DNA of 64,000 nt from Thermanaerosceptrum fracticalcis. GTDB lineage: Bacteria > Bacillota > Peptococcia > DRI-13. Positions 9,138 to 59,380 of this stretch are shown here, one piece after another (the stretch's first letter is position 1; every line of letters begins with the position of its first letter). The stretch covers positions 1,164,501-1,228,500 of the forward strand of contig NZ_CP045798.1 in assembly GCF_000746025.2 (NCBI RefSeq). The letters are read 5' to 3'. A program made the translations under genes and the position numbers. The notes beneath the pieces are model-generated. The model saw only the letters and a program-made list of their open reading frames with translations, was not told the DNA's origin and ran no database searches.

Positions 9138-10220
9138 TTACTTAATTCGATATTTTTCCAAAAACTCCTGTCTCGCTAAAATGAGAGGATGGCATGAAGA
9201 TGATACCAAAATCCCTATGTCCTGATTGGGAATGGCGGGGTCAGGGACAACCTTGATTTCCCTTATTTTTAAATGTTCCTTAAAGAAGCCGATATTACAG
9301 CGTTTCTGGCCCACCACCTTGGAATAGTCCCGGGGATTAATATATAAAATTAACTCCTTCTCCCGGAAGTTTATCTTTTTTAAAAAACAAAGAATCTGCT
9401 CCCGCATCAAATAACCTTCTACCAGTTCACCAAAGGCAGGATGATAAGGCCCGGCCAGCAAATCCCGTGTAAAGGAAAGGTTTTCCGCGGCCTGGAGACC
9501 TATGCGAATAACGGGGATGTCATACAGGGAAAAAGTTGCTAACCAGTGGGCAGCATAAGTTACCGCTGCGGAAAGACTTAAGGGATGATAGATCCCTTGT
9601 TCATACCACTGGGCCAAAAGCGTACCTTTAAGAACCACAGTGGGATAGATGCGGATAAAATCAGGCCTGGCTTCCACTGCTCTCCTGGCCGTAAGAAAAA
9701 TATACTCTTCCTTATCTCCCGGCAATCCCAGCATGAGCTGGTAACCCAGTTGGACCGGGTATTTCCTGATGATTTCTGTGGCTCGCAAAATGTCTTCATA
9801 GGTATGCCCTCTCCTGGTTTCCAACAAGACTTCATTAACCAGGGACTGTACCCCCAGTTCAATGGTGGTAACACCGTGAGCCAAGAGCCTCCGCAATATC
9901 CCGTCATCAACATAATCGGGGCGCGTAGAAAGGCGTAAGCCCGCTATCTTCCCCTTTTGGATGGCGTTTAACCCTTCTTTTAACCACTTGAGCTGGACTT
10001 CCACCGGCAGCCCGGTAAAACTCCCCCCGAAAAAAGCTGCCTCTACCCTGGTATCTTCAGTAACCTGGGCCGTAGCCAAAAAACTTTGTACCCGCCTGCT
10101 GAATGCTTCAGGCTGCAGTTCTTCACTTTGCCCGCTGATCTCCCACTGATTACAAAATACACAGGTGAAAGGACATCCCCCATGGGGTATAAAAAAGGGG
10201 ATAATCATTGTTTTTCCCAC
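9138..10220 (-). CDS. Elp3-like radical SAM protein
   Basis: 360-residue radical SAM protein. The cluster motif CPFTCVFCNQ (CX3CX2C) lies within the first 25 residues after IIPFFIPHGG, followed by the FFGGSFTGLP strand, RLSTRPDYVDD and a GLPGDKEEY motif typical of the Elp3/YhcC/HemN-like class. The C-terminal 100 residues are a family extension. The GTG start overlaps the rnc stop as TAGTG; an ATG 12 bases later is an alternative. The order rnc-radical SAM-smc-ftsY recurs in Clostridia, and the substrate is unknown; tRNA or another nucleic acid is plausible from the neighbours but unproven. Confidence 0.85.
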   Translation of the reverse strand: MGKTMIIPFFIPHGGCPFTCVFCNQWEISGQSEELQPEAFSRRVQSFLATAQVTEDTRVEAAFFGGSFTGLPVEVQLKWLKEGLNAIQKGKIAGLRLSTRPDYVDDGILRRLLAHGVTTIELGVQSLVNEVLLETRRGHTYEDILRATEIIRKYPVQLGYQLMLGLPGDKEEYIFLTARRAVEARPDFIRIYPTVVLKGTLLAQWYEQGIYHPLSLSAAVTYAAHWLATFSLYDIPVIRIGLQAAENLSFTRDLLAGPYHPAFGELVEGYLMREQILCFLKKINFREKELILYINPRDYSKVVGQKRCNIGFFKEHLKIREIKVVPDPAIPNQDIGILVSSSCHPLILARQEFLEKYRIK

Positions 10221-10930
10221 TACTGGAGGACCCCCAGTTTGAGGAGTGCTAGCCTTGCGGCCTGCTGTTCCGCTTCTTTTTTCGTACGTCCCTGGCCACG
10301 GGCCATTTCTTCATCATTGCAGTAGACCGCTGCCAGGAACAGCTTGTCGTGATCCGGCCCTGTCTCCGCCAGGATCTGGTAACTCACGCGGCTTTCCGGC
10401 GCCCTCTGGATATATTCTTGCAACTGGGTCTTAAAATCACCATAATTGCCCTGGGCCGCCTGTATGATATCATGATGTAACACCCTGAGAATAAGGTTCC
10501 GCACAAAATCCAACCCCACTGTAAGATAAAGAGCCCCGGCAAAGGCCTCAAAACAATCGGCCAGATTGGAGGGACGTTTTGCACCGCCCATCATTTCTTC
10601 TCCCCGACCCAAAAGAAGATACTGGCCTAAATTGAGCTGCTGGGCCGCCCGAGCCAAAGCCGGTTCACATACTACGGCTGCCCTCATTTTTGTCAGTTCT
10701 CCCTCAGTTTTGTGAGGATACTTTTCAAAAAGAAACTGGCCGATGACCAGACCCACCACGGCATCACCCAGAAACTCCAGGCGCTGATTATGCTCACCCG
10801 CTGCGGCTCCTCCTTCATAAACATAAGAGGGGTGAATTAAAGCCTGGTGCACCAGGGTAAGGTCAACCTTATCTTTTATACCCACCTCTTCCAGCAACTG
10901 TTCTAACTGTTTTTTGCGATTTCCGTTCAT
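10220..10930 (-). CDS. rnc: Ribonuclease III
   Basis: 236 residues. It cleaves double-stranded RNA for rRNA maturation and mRNA turnover. N-terminal nuclease domain with the signature QRLEFLGDAVVGLVIG near residues 46-61 and a second acidic patch DCFEAFAGALYLTVG; C-terminal double-stranded RNA binding domain with GQGRTKKEAEQQAARLAL. It lies downstream of fabF, with a terminator and repeat region between. Confidence 0.95.
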   Translation of the reverse strand: MNGNRKKQLEQLLEEVGIKDKVDLTLVHQALIHPSYVYEGGAAAGEHNQRLEFLGDAVVGLVIGQFLFEKYPHKTEGELTKMRAAVVCEPALARAAQQLNLGQYLLLGRGEEMMGGAKRPSNLADCFEAFAGALYLTVGLDFVRNLILRVLHHDIIQAAQGNYGDFKTQLQEYIQRAPESRVSYQILAETGPDHDKLFLAAVYCNDEEMARGQGRTKKEAEQQAARLALLKLGVLQ

Positions 10931-10955: not shown

Positions 10956-11169
10956 GACCGACATCCGATATCCGATATCCGACTTCCGAGCATCAGATTT
11001 GGGTGACCAGAGACCAGTGTCCGGAGTCCGGCTCCTGTATGAGTGACCAGAGCCCAGTGTCCAGTGTCCGGTTAATTTACTGGTCACGGGTCACCGGTCA
11101 CTGATATCTGCCAACTACCAACTGCGAACTCAATTCTACTAATAACTAAGAACTAGTAACTACCAACTA
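10956..11169. repeat. Long mixed heptamer repeat region (copy 2)
   Basis: The clearest mixed array. In exact 7-base steps: GACCGAC 10956, ATCCGAT 10963, ATCCGAT 10970, ATCCGAC 10977, TTCCGAG 10984. Then a GACCAGA/GTCCGGA type near 11004-11032 and again 11043-11071, a GGTCACG/GGTCACC/GGTCACT type near 11082-11103, CCAACTA/CCAACTG near 11111, and AATAACT/AAGAACT/AGTAACT/ACCAACT to about 11169. At least five unit families stand side by side, all with period 7. No coding potential seen. Confidence 0.8.
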
Positions 11170-11173
11170 AGAA

Positions 11174-11190
11174 GGAGGCTTATCGCCTCC
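11174..11190 (-). terminator. Hairpin terminator after fabF
   Basis: GGAGGC (11174-11179) pairs with GCCTCC (11185-11190), directly beyond the fabF stop at 11197; on the minus strand it is followed by TTCTTAG. The U-tract is weak, so termination may be partial and allow read-through to rnc. Confidence 0.5.
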
Positions 11191-11196
11191 CTCTTA

Positions 11197-12438
11197 TTAT
11201 GCCTTAAATTTTCCAATTACAACAGTAGCATTATGTCCACCAAAGCCCAAAGAATTACTGAGGGCATAATCCACGGTCATCTTCCGGGCTTGGTTGGGTA
11301 CATAGTCCAGATCACATTCGGGGTCTGGGGTTTCGTAGTTTATGGTGGGTGGTACGATATCGTTATAAACCGCCAGAGCTGTTGCCACCATTTCGATACC
11401 ACCGGCAGCGCCCAGGAGGTGCCCGGTCATGGATTTGGTAGAACTGATAGCCAGCTTATAGGCATGCTCACCAAAAACTTGTTTGATGGCCATAGTTTCG
11501 TACTTATCGTTAAGGTCGGTAGATGTACCGTGGGCATTAATATAGTCGATGTTCTCGGGTTTGAGCCCTGCATCCCTGATAGCTTCGGCCATGGCTTTGG
11601 CTGCACCGGCACCGCCAGGAGCAGGAGCTGTGATATGATGGGCATCAGCGGTAGTGCCATAACCCAGGACCTCTGCATATATCCTGGCCCCTCTTTTTTG
11701 GGCATGTTCAAAACTCTCCAGGATAAGTATACCGCTTCCTTCACCCATGACAAAACCGTCACGGTTGGCGTCAAAGGGACGGCTGGCTTTTTGCGGTTCA
11801 TCGTTATGGGTGGACATGGCTTTCATGGAACAGAATCCGGCAAAGGCCAAGGGGGTAATAGAAGCTTCCGTACCACCGGTTATAACGACTTCCGCCCCTC
11901 CCCTTTGGATTAACTTAAAGGCATCGCCAATGGCATTGGTGGCCGAAGCACAGGCCGTTACCACCGTAATATTGGGACCAGTAACACCTAAAGCGATGGC
12001 TACTTGCCCGGCGGCCATGTTCCCAATCATCATGGGGACAAAGAAGGGACTCACCCGTCCCGGTCCTTTTTCCCTGAGGATTCTCGCCTGTTCCTCTAAG
12101 GTCTCCATCCCGCCAATTCCGGAACCCAGGATAACGCCGACTTTTTCTTTGTCGAGACCTTCCATGTCCATTTTTGCGTCTTCTAAAGCCACCTTGGCCC
12201 CGGCTACCGCAAATTGGGTAAAGCGGTCCATGCGTTTAGCCTCTTTTTTATCCATGTAAAGTCCGGGATCAAAGTCTTTTACTTCACCAGCAATCTTAGT
12301 AGGAAATTCCGTAACATCGAAACGCGTCACCAAGTCAATACCAGACTTTCCTTCCAGGAGACCCTGCCAAAATTTCTCCACACCTGTCCCCAGGGGGGAA
12401 ATGGCGGCAAGGCCAGTAATCACTACTCTTCTTGTCAT
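11197..12438 (-). CDS. fabF: Beta-ketoacyl-ACP synthase II
   Basis: 413 residues; condenses malonyl-ACP with acyl-ACP in fatty acid elongation. The catalytic Cys-His-His triad is visible: [12 protein letters not shown] (Cys163), [11 protein letters not shown] near residue 303 and [12 protein letters not shown] near 339. Last gene of the fapR-fab operon; full length. The C-terminus [15 protein letters not shown] is typical. Confidence 0.95.
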
Positions 12439-22423: not shown

Positions 22424-22607
22424 TACGATTTCCGATATCCGTTTTCGTTATCCGATGTCTTTTTTTGACGAATACGACTTCGCCTCCCGCATCCGACGTC
22501 CGAGTTTAATTGCTTCCTAGTTCATGCTCTAGCAAAACATTATCGGAAGTCGGCAGTCGGAGAGCGGAAGTCGGTTAACAGTTCACTGTTCACGGTTAAC
22601 GGTTAAC
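22409..22607. repeat. Composite heptamer repeat element (copy 3)
   Basis: Fills the convergent gap between tmcAL and ylbK and overlaps both stop codons. Left arm CCGATAT-type units from 22410; then a non-heptamer block at 22457-22489 that is almost identical to 47071-47102; a core at 22501-22551 shared with copy 1; then right-arm CGG units (CGGAAGT, CGGCAGT, CGGTTAA, CGGTTAA) to 22607. Confidence 0.85.
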
Positions 22608-27612: not shown

Positions 27613-27828
27613 TTAGAATTGTTGACCTTTAGCCAGAGCCTCTTCGGCGAACTGGACCATCTTTCTGGTCATATAACCTCCCACATAACCGTTTTGACGG
27701 GAAGTGAGCTGGCCTTTGTCGATTTGTGCATAGTTGGTCAAACCTAATTCACTGGCAATTTCAAACTTTAGTCTGTCCAGACCTTGAGCAGCGCCTTGAA
27801 CAGCAGGAGTATTGGTGTTTCTTGGCAT
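27613..27828 (-). CDS. Alpha/beta-type small acid-soluble spore protein 1
   Basis: 71 residues. Protects spore DNA. The GPR cleavage region KFEIASELGL and the second conserved block NGYVGGYMTRKMVQFAEEAL are complete. Lies 37 bases downstream of a near-identical paralogue, probably in one transcript. Confidence 0.95.
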   Translation of the reverse strand: MPRNTNTPAVQGAAQGLDRLKFEIASELGLTNYAQIDKGQLTSRQNGYVGGYMTRKMVQFAEEALAKGQQF

Positions 27829-27865
27829 TGATTATTCACCTCCTTTCAAGCGTAAAACACACCAA

Positions 27866-28081
27866 TTAAAATTGCTGACCCTTAGCCAGAGCCTCTTCGG
27901 CGAACTGAACCATCTTTCTGGTCATATAGCCACCAACATAACCGTTTTGACGGGAAGTGAGTTGACCTTTATCAATTTCGGCATAGTTGGCGAGTCCTAA
28001 TTCACTGGCAATTTCATACTTTAATCTGTCTAATCCGGGAGCGGCACCTTGCACAGCGGGTTTATTTCTATTACGTGGCAT
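27866..28081 (-). CDS. Alpha/beta-type small acid-soluble spore protein 2
   Basis: 71 residues from the ATG at 28081, which has AAGGAGGTGA eight bases upstream; the longer frame to 28093 is unlikely. Contains KYEIASELGL and the same C-terminal half as SASP 1, from which it differs mainly in the first 35 residues. A tandem duplication. Confidence 0.95.
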   Translation of the reverse strand: MPRNRNKPAVQGAAPGLDRLKYEIASELGLANYAEIDKGQLTSRQNGYVGGYMTRKMVQFAEEALAKGQQF

Positions 28082-28114
28082 TGCTGGTGTCACCTCCTTC
28101 TCTTTGACTAGTCT

Positions 28115-30803: not shown

Positions 30804-30907
30804 AGTTACTAGTTACTAGTTATTAGTTATTAGTGGTTTAAGGTCTTCTGACCCCAAAGAATACGTTTAAAAAACACTAGTAACTAGGAACTAATAACTA
30901 GTAACTA
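30804..30907. repeat. Heptamer element with inverted arms (copy 6)
   Basis: Left arm AGTTACT 30804, AGTTACT 30811, AGTTATT 30818, AGTTATT 30825. Right arm CACTAGT 30875, AACTAGG 30882, AACTAAT 30889, AACTAGT 30896, AACTA 30903, the reverse complement type. A 40-base middle separates them, so the whole could fold into a long hairpin like a miniature inverted-repeat element. Confidence 0.85.
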
Positions 30908-45214: not shown

Positions 45215-45280
45215 TAGTTGTTAGTTGGCAGTAGGCAGTGATTTGTGAGTTACTAGTTACTAGTTATTAGTTTCTAGTGA
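45212..45280. repeat. Heptamer array starting at the rpmB stop codon (copy 8a)
   Basis: TAATAGT 45212, TGTTAGT 45219, TGGCAGT 45226, AGGCAGT 45233, GATTTGT 45240, then one extra base and AGTTACT 45248, AGTTACT 45255, AGTTATT 45262, AGTTTCT 45269. Gradual change of unit sequence along one array. Confidence 0.8.
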
Positions 45281-45313
45281 AATTAAATTTAAGTATTTTT
45301 ATTACTTCTAAAT

Positions 45314-45340
45314 AAAGAAGCGGGATTGTCCCGCTTCTTT
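45314..45340. terminator. Bidirectional terminator between rpmB and hslO
   Basis: Perfect 12-bp stem AAAGAAGCGGGA/TCCCGCTTCTTT with a three-base loop, then T-rich on the plus strand. Confidence 0.9.
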
Positions 45341-45370
45341 TATTTGTTCTCCCATTCACGCTACTAACAC

Positions 45371-45412
45371 GTCGGAATTCGGAAAGCGGACGTCGGATAT
45401 CGCTAATAGCTT
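45371..45412. repeat. Heptamer array running into the hslO stop codon (copy 8b)
   Basis: GTCGGAA 45371, TTCGGAA 45378, AGCGGAC 45385, GTCGGAT 45392, ATCGCTA 45399, ATAGCTT 45406. The stop and last two codons of hslO (45403-45411) are repeat sequence. Confidence 0.75.
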
Positions 45413-46985: not shown

Positions 46986-47297
46986 AGTTGATAGTTGTTA
47001 AGTAAGTTACTAGTTACTATTTATTAGTTGCTATTTGCTAGTAAATCAATATCCGCTTTCCGATATCCGATGTCTTTTTTGACGAATACGGCTTCGCCTC
47101 CCGATATCCGACTTCCGACGTCCCAAGAATTAATATTATGTATCTTTGAAGTAGAACTATCATTATCGGCGGTTGGTTGTCAGAAATCGGTTAACGGTTC
47201 ACGGTTTACGGTTAACGATTATGCTTAGGTGGCAAAACCTTCATTCTGATTGATAATTTCAGGGTATTTTCGGAAAGCGGATGTCGGAAATCGTATA
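46986..47297. repeat. Largest composite heptamer element (copy 9)
   Basis: Fills the thiN-rpe gap. Segment 1 (46986-47042): GTTACTA/TTTATTA/GTTGCTA/TTTGCTA units. Segment 2 (47048-47125): TCCGCTT/TCCGATA units, interrupted by a block 47071-47102 nearly identical to 22457-22489. Segment 3 (47165-47217): TCAGAAA TCGGTTA-type and CGGTTCA, CGGTTTA, CGGTTAA units. Segment 4 (47218-47246): a copy of the 3' end of ylbK. Segment 5 (47270-47293): CGGAAAG, CGGATGT, CGGAAAT. Confidence 0.85.
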
Positions 47298-59331: not shown

Positions 59332-59380
59332 TAGTTGCTAGTTATTAGTTACTAGTTACTAGTTATTAGTTATTAGATAA
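59332..59380. repeat. Seven-unit heptamer array (copy 10)
   Basis: TAGTTGC 59332, TAGTTAT 59339, TAGTTAC 59346, TAGTTAC 59353, TAGTTAT 59360, TAGTTAT 59367, TAGATAA 59374. The most regular array in the window, between metK and priA. Confidence 0.9.

Follow-up and report, generated by a model that had tools for sequence, protein, structure and literature searches.

Dispersed, modular heptamer repeats with a common inward polarity in the fabF-rnc gap and other intergenic gaps of Thermanaerosceptrum fracticalcis

How does a single intergenic gap come to hold what appear to be five heptamer families side by side? The question is raised by the gap between fabF and rnc in Thermanaerosceptrum fracticalcis DRI-13, the genome of which (G000) consists of a single contig of 3,805,411 bases. 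The gap lies in a stretch of 64,000 nucleotides that was analysed as a whole and is called the window here. A preliminary description had placed a region of 7-base periodicity at positions 10956-11169, and both the coordinates and the period proved correct, as 58.5% of the bases match the base seven positions further on, against 25.3 +/- 3.1% (maximum 38.6%) in 2000 Markov shuffles. Identity amounts to 49.5% and 38.9% at lags 14 and 21, while the remaining lags from 2 to 28 yield 17.6-31.2%. The 214-base period-7 region is real and lies far beyond chance. In our assessment it is probably one site of a genome-wide set of dispersed, modular heptamer repeats that are copied between gaps and resized unit by unit. 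The gap and its flanking genes comprise the following features, in coordinates of the window:

10220..10930, minus strand: rnc, ribonuclease III (TIGR02191, 238 bits)
10956..11169, no strand assigned: composite heptamer-array cluster of the fabF-rnc gap, defined by lag-7 identity and recurring elsewhere in the genome
10961..10988, plus strand: C block (TTCCGAN)n, inward-reading, at the rnc edge, beginning about 30 bp from the rnc start codon (TRF 10958-10994, period 7)
11003..11070, plus strand: E block, the arm GTGACCAGAGNCCAGTGTCC twice with a linker between the copies
11042..11102, minus strand: E hairpin made of the arm GTGACCAGAGCCCAGTGTCC, a loop containing TTAATTTAC and an arm of GGTCAC repeats (RNA fold)
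11081..11101, minus strand: opposite arm of E, (GGTCACS)n, the place of a unit gain in the sister species
11110..11130, minus strand: B block (CCAACTN)n, corresponding to AGTTGNN on the other strand
11138..11170, minus strand: A/B block (ACTAATA/AGTAACT/CCAACTA), inward-reading, at the fabF edge
11169..11195, minus strand: terminator-like hairpin GGGAGGCGATAAGCCTCC at the fabF stop (fold), beside which the array starts
11197..12438, minus strand: fabF, beta-ketoacyl-ACP synthase II (TIGR03150, 671 bits)

Every heptamer named in the preliminary description is present in the region, either exactly or with one mismatch. The five families nevertheless reduce to three modules, a C block, an E hairpin and an A/B block: one hairpin has GACCAGA/GTCCGGA in one arm and GGTCACG in the opposite arm, and both CCAACTA and AGTAACT read as AGTTNNY on the complementary strand. 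From the rnc side, the C block comes first, followed by the E hairpin, one arm of which is present in a further copy, and by the A/B block. The periodicity, said not to be left for long, is genuine but its phase is interrupted by non-heptamer linkers (about 10991-11000, 11031-11040, 11071-11080, 11103-11107 and 11131-11137), so that the focal region is a chain of modules and not a single continuous array. Several of these linkers are found again at other loci.

Such tracts are not restricted to the fabF-rnc gap. In 848.5 kb of the same genome, composed of the window and 40 evenly spaced stretches, 72 period-7 tracts are present as opposed to none in one Markov-shuffled copy; the same sample contains 0-6 tracts at lags 2-6 and 8-13. 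Since 66 of the 72 are intergenic, the genome displays tandem 7-bp units at many, mainly intergenic loci, just as bacterial heptanucleotide repeats among the long simple repeats (STRR) do. Genes were taken as simple ORF calls of at least 90 aa. In total, 60 stretches of the genome were considered, of which 20 (L092-L111) had been chosen for AGTNACT arrays or matches to the focal region; rates from these 20 and from the sister contigs are therefore not genome averages. Stretch L050 overlaps the window and was trimmed or left out. Further features of this kind in the window are:

22428..22607, no strand assigned: C block, linker and a second C block fused in phase to CGGTTAA units
30804..30906, no strand assigned: A hairpin, an AGTTACT block facing an AGTAACT block
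45216..45400, no strand assigned: B and A blocks on one side, a C block on the other
46986..47291, no strand assigned: B, A and C blocks in a cluster, interspersed with GTTAACC units
59332..59376, plus strand: lone A block

The focal region has 58 similar matches in its own genome, itself included, and the best of the others are 75-94% identical with the families in the same order, which indicates that this juxtaposition arose largely by the copying of a composite and not by slippage in place. Recurrence extends to the parts of the modules. A chimeric module joins about four AGTT units to about four CGGA units, usually through a linker of the AGTGGTTTTC type; 28 copies are present in the examined sequence of the genome, those in tandem included (four in L108, two in L110). 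The arms of G hairpins are of the GCCACCCGCTACCCG and TTTCCCGATTCCCG types, and those of E hairpins are GTGACCAGAGYCCAGTGTCC and GTGACCGGTGACC; both hairpins consist of two distinct arms and loops, all of which recur. As arms, linkers and loops recur jointly, the modules were evidently copied as wholes. The possibility that hairpin arms are fresh inverted copies of each other was rejected, as the arms of the same hairpin are less alike than arms from different loci for E, A, C and G, though not for B. The order of AGTT units carries information as well (mutual information 1.14 versus 1.02 +/- 0.03 in within-array shuffles), whereas the effect is weak for CGGA units (1.03 versus 0.97 +/- 0.04). 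AGTT chains comprise two units in 37 cases, three in 12, four in 20 and five in seven, with a second peak at four. Some heptamer modules have also been amplified in tandem, with about seven copies of a unit of about 109 bp in L107:9864-10550 and about four copies of a unit of about 123 bp in L108:12064-12540. Other repeats were seen in passing. An interspersed element of about 280 bp (L129:1016-1300, also in L051, L121 and L048) is 81-90% alike between copies and adjoins heptamer blocks; the copies in L129 and L048 have no Rfam match. At 27613-28099, the window contains nearly two tandem copies of a 253-bp unit with 83% identity, which probably represent two short duplicated genes. An Rfam search of the window and four stretches yielded no match at the gathering score.

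The sister species G001, a metagenome-assembled genome of the same genus, allows following the fate of individual gaps. Its rnc locus resides on JAIHAN010000036.1 (stretch L009) with an rnc gene 98% identical to that of DRI-13, and 3.9% of the aligned positions differ between the two genomes in the compared stretches. The preliminary description had named unit-wise gain, loss and drift as the pattern to look for in the orthologous fabF-rnc gap, and base-for-base conservation as the finding that would speak against it. The former was seen and the latter was not found in the sister species: one 7-bp unit has been gained in one hairpin arm, one 7-bp unit has been lost in the other, and several AGTT units have changed mostly at letters 5-7, including four in the A/B block at 11138..11170. 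The further proposal that the families are variants of one process holds with respect to their common architecture of period 7, inward polarity and modular nesting; it does not hold in the sense of a graded series within one array, because the modules are distinct and recurring.

Turnover is extensive at other gaps, too. Orthologous gaps in which at least one of the two genomes has a tract number 36; of these, 19 are rearranged, 14 show small changes and 3 are the same, as assessed with our first family patterns, which counted CGGAC units inside E as C. Some of these gaps contain a different heptamer family between similar flanks. Gene-anchored gaps are rearranged in 14 of 28 cases when they carry arrays and in 5 of 36 when they do not (p 0.002). 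Indels of at least 7 bp in unrearranged array gaps measure 7 bp (seven times), 14 bp (twice), 28, 35, 8 (twice), 12 and 30 bp, so that 11 of 15 are multiples of seven, and the 7, 14, 28 and 35-bp cases amount to a change of copy number in unit steps between relatives as is typical of STRR; gaps without arrays contributed a single such indel of 11 bp. No fresh donor near 100% identity was detected for swapped arrays, the copies elsewhere in the examined sequence being 66-94% identical. One pair of a filled and an empty gap features CAACTA at both ends, as could result from duplication upon insertion or equally from the deletion of sequence between units. REP-like palindromes GGGGACA..TGTCCCC occur in one sister genome and are absent from the other (L114:2992-3557 versus L102; L130:4889-5096 versus L066:16694-16947), and one of them sits beside an AGTTACT array.

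Within arrays, the letters of a unit are not equally variable. From neighbour to neighbour, AGTTNNY units change in 27% and 50% of the steps at letters 5 and 6 and in 11-15% at the other letters, and CGGANNN units change in 39-52% of the steps at letters 5-7 and in 15-28% at the others, unlike the flat profile resulting from a simulation of uniform substitution. Positional figures for family E were left unused because of an N run in the sequence. A constraint on core letters 1-4, suggested by this variation from unit to unit, was not upheld, as the differences between orthologs are not significant (6 of 256 core letters versus 8 of 192 variable letters, p 0.29, aligned units with gaps being dropped).

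The unit-sized indels and the presence of period 7 and its multiples only are what would be expected if the arrays were plain microsatellites, each arisen in place by polymerase slippage with the heptamer as the favoured slip length, and excerpts of two papers report a heptamer preference among long simple repeats along with a polymerase-footprint proposal (PMC4679880, PMC4692102). We regard such an origin as unlikely. The same composites with non-heptamer linkers are encountered at many loci, whole families have been replaced between similar flanks, AGTT chains have their second peak at four units, and the blocks obey a fixed polarity as described below. Slippage as sole origin is disfavoured by the shared linkers and recurring unit orders, and it stays as a source of unit-size changes.

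The most general property of the arrays concerns their direction. Same-family inverted neighbours within 200 bp exhibit one polarity per family without exception (A 6/6, C 8/8, E 6/6, G 4/4). Blocks were labelled L or R, with AGTT.., GTGACC.., TTCCG.. and TTCCCG.. as the inward forms on the strand running from the gene edge into the gap; the labels were derived from same-family inverted pairs, those of B following A by analogy, and were subsequently tested against the order of different families and on position in the gap. In 95 clusters of at least two blocks, counted with refined family patterns, the outermost pair is L..R in 78, L..L in 11, R..R in 5 and R..L in 1, where random strands would give about 24 L..R. 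The evenly spaced sample alone behaves similarly (L..R 26, L..L 3, R..R 3, R..L 1, n=33), as do the sister contigs (L..R 28, R..R 2, R..L 1, n=31), which are not independent of the clusters in DRI-13. Different-family neighbours taken alone are LR in 40 and RL in 7 cases (p 1e-6). By the first family patterns, with the CGGAC units of E counted as C, 50 of 67 L blocks lie in the left half of their gap and 51 of 55 R blocks in the right half, and block positions are alike in ++, -- and +- gaps. The polarity is therefore the same in co-directional and convergent gaps, and transcription does not set the rule. Divergent gaps are avoided: they make up 6 of 135 array gaps as compared with 87 of 413 other gaps (p 1e-6). 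Irrespective of transcription, each heptamer family thus keeps a single direction of reading from the gene edge into the gap, and this is the new element here. In another family of the class, two of the four repeat families that could be tested follow the rule as well: in G038 and G033, TAGTRRC is inward in 19 of 20 cases and GTGCCCA in 8 of 8, whereas no polarity is evident there for GTCTATG (5 inward, 4 outward) and ACATTCT (2 and 3), and two further patterns tested yielded 1 and 2 cases. In DRI-13 itself the polarity of TAGTRRC is weak (7 inward, 4 outward).

A rule of this kind could reflect polar writing at DNA ends, such that the two ends of a broken gap are each extended at the 3' strand with heptamers and then rejoined. 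Every block would then point from its gene edge into the gap, and different families could occupy the two sides, consistent with inward polarity in all gap types, with its persistence between different families, with the nesting of families from the gene edge inward and with the orientation of partnerless lone blocks, 35 of which are inward and 9 outward. The two sides are not independent, though, as central block pairs belong to the same family in 51 of 91 cases where 22 are expected, and shared linkers and unit order among modules point to copying. We know of no enzyme that adds a fixed heptamer. The end-joining protein Ku is encoded in 10 of 11 genomes with AGTNACT arrays (G000, G001, G029, G031, G036, G038, G099, G137, G153 and G205) versus 38 of 83 others tested (p 0.008, few lineages), and it was not found in array-bearing G033, a genome that is 89% complete. 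The eleven genomes are related, representing about five lineages, and Ku is widespread across the phylum, so that the association is a lead only. All in all, we consider writing at broken ends an improbable origin of the arrays.

The module types differ in how far they reach beyond DRI-13. AGTNACTAGTNACT has 80 matches in DRI-13, 42 in the sister species and 2-51 in each of the five genomes that belong to one other family of the class, and is absent from the remaining genomes among the 60 searched. Of 398 genomes from the phylum, 7 contain three units. TCCGANNTCCGANNTCCGA is frequent only within the genus itself, where it has 68 and 37 matches, as against 3 in G038 and 1 in G029, and the E composite was found 14 times in G000, 13 times in G001 and as one weak match in G038.

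Individual modules might act on neighbouring transcripts as functional RNA hairpins or protein-binding arrays, as has been proposed for the TAACTGA repeats of Beggiatoaceae. E, A and G hairpins do fold well: the E hairpin at 11042-11102 reaches -28.9 kcal/mol as RNA (z -4.5), and the A hairpin at 30804..30906 has a z of -7.9. Furthermore, blocks stop just short of ribosome-binding sites at several genes. The focal array of 214 nt, taken as a whole, gains little or nothing in fold stability over shuffles (z -1.1 as RNA and -0.2 as DNA). A function in the transcript is very unlikely in our view, since there is no strand preference at co-directional genes (same/opposite: A 9/12, E 9/8, C 21/12), the polarity holds in convergent gaps too, and gap contents have been replaced between the sister species. 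In addition, unit changes in the hairpin upstream of rnc are unmatched between its arms, and the first 16 pairs of 13 E hairpins lack two-sided compensatory changes, for which reason a conservation of E pairing as RNA was rejected. A regulatory role is not needed to explain the observations.

Heptamer repeats with a similar geometry have been described before. According to the sections consulted, Rehm et al. (2015) relate GGGAATC in Xanthomonas and GGGGA(C/T)T in Nostoc/Anabaena to gene edges by strand and distance, note that these G-rich heptamers are rare in divergent gaps and form inverted pairs in Xanthomonas, link them to quadruplexes and report the respective gaps as more conserved than controls (PMC4692102). 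As far as those sections go, inverted pairs and a fixed strand relative to the nearest gene edge are shared with DRI-13, where several families, mostly without G-runs, and chimeric modules take the place of one G-rich family per genome and the gaps are less stable than controls. The units here are AGTTNNY, GTGNCC and CGGANN and do not carry a G-run each. Quadruplex-forming repeats placed for regulation, as suggested for Xanthomonas and Nostoc, would account for the same geometry reported there (PMC4692102, in part), and the CGGG family of DRI-13 could form G-tracts; even so, we hold this explanation to be extremely improbable, as the AGTT, GTGACC and CGGA families keep the rule without runs of three G, the AGTT family in itself being inconsistent with quadruplexes, and the CGGG family reads inward with its C-rich strand, opposite to the G-rich strand in Xanthomonas and Nostoc.

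The P6b stem of the Nostoc trnL (UAA) intron, as presented in excerpts of Kaasalainen et al. (2015), contains Class I (TDNGATT) or Class II (NNTGAGT) 7-nt repeats that are swapped between relatives (PMC4476775). Judging from these, degenerate 7-nt repeats forming both stem arms, wholesale swaps of classes and 7-nt indels are common to both systems, whereas the Nostoc repeats are confined to a single locus inside a group I intron and those of DRI-13 occupy many intergenic loci. MacGregor (2015), again in the parts covered here, describes TAACTGA repeats in Beggiatoaceae, Cyanobacteria and Bacteroidetes, with 147 of 170 sets pointing to the start codon, and mixed heptamers in Microcystis (PMC4679880). 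Intergenic sets of two to six units are shared, and pointing at a start codon is the same inward reading; read on the complementary strand with its phase shifted, TAACTGA becomes AGTTATC, which belongs to the AGTTNNY family as a minor member. According to the same parts, heptamers related to TAACTGA are seldom in arrays and are read as translational signals (PMC4679880). The portions of the DRI-13 genome paper at hand contain no mention of heptamer arrays (PMC7988955). A CRISPR repeat given in that paper lies in G000 with an identical start coordinate, 638,577, by which G000 is DRI-13 or a genome practically indistinguishable from it. In open-licence papers, we found neither an account of such arrays in Peptococcaceae nor of a polarity common to several heptamer families.

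What moves the modules? REP, BIME and REPIN elements are mobilised by RAYT transposases and resemble the DRI-13 modules as short palindromic intergenic repeats in modular mosaics; they differ in that the arms here are heptamer arrays. Five Y1_Tnp loci are present in the genome, and no heptamer blocks flank the two RAYT-like ones examined (L099 and L080), for which reason RAYT was rejected as the mover. The gene in L099:11800-12900 is situated between short palindromes (GGTGCCTGGCACC or similar) that represent a second repeat system of the genome. A reverse transcriptase as the maker was likewise rejected, as RVT_1 was not found in G029, G031, G033 and G036, all of which contain AGTNACT arrays. 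Nor did we find a transposase, recombinase or target duplication linked to the modules. The lone blocks speak against a pure hairpin element, as they keep the polarity even though few have a complementary partner (mean z for complementarity to the rest of the gap 0.58, 12% above 2).

We return to dispersed modules copied between gaps as the probable explanation. A module is either a block in which a single heptamer type is repeated, as a rule two to five times, or a two-block hairpin or a fixed chimera of two types, and modules fill intergenic gaps up to stop codons, terminators and ribosome-binding sites in a fixed inward direction from each gene edge. Two motions change them. Whole modules are copied to, lost from and exchanged between gaps, as shown by shared linkers and refilled orthologous gaps, and single 7-bp units are gained and lost, the indels being observed and slippage being their presumed cause. 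Modules would most likely be copied through recombination or template switching where breaks or stalled forks occur at these palindromic sites. They would behave like non-autonomous interspersed repeats of the BIME or MITE sort that are microsatellite-like inside.

Repeats of this kind were already known, and what the genome of T. fracticalcis adds is a polarity common to several families, chimeric modules and fast refilling. It is conceivable, albeit doubtful, that heptamer arrays across phyla, in Bacillota as well as in Xanthomonas, Nostoc and Beggiatoa, are products of one polar DNA process, independent of unit letters and transcription, by which units of seven bases would be written or inserted at a broken or stalled intergenic site, starting at its edges and proceeding inward. 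If true, the strand bias near genes that has so far been read as regulation or quadruplexes would be the footprint of a polar DNA process. The observations bear on the reasons for the preference for seven-base repeats in bacteria and for the location of these repeats. The sister pair also provides a fast clock, with half of the tested array-bearing gaps differing between genomes that are about 4% apart in the compared stretches. Because unlike heptamer families obey one inward rule, geometry is separated from letters; explanations tied to one sequence, be it quadruplexes, one binding protein or one translational signal, become unlikely, and a process at the DNA level becomes testable.
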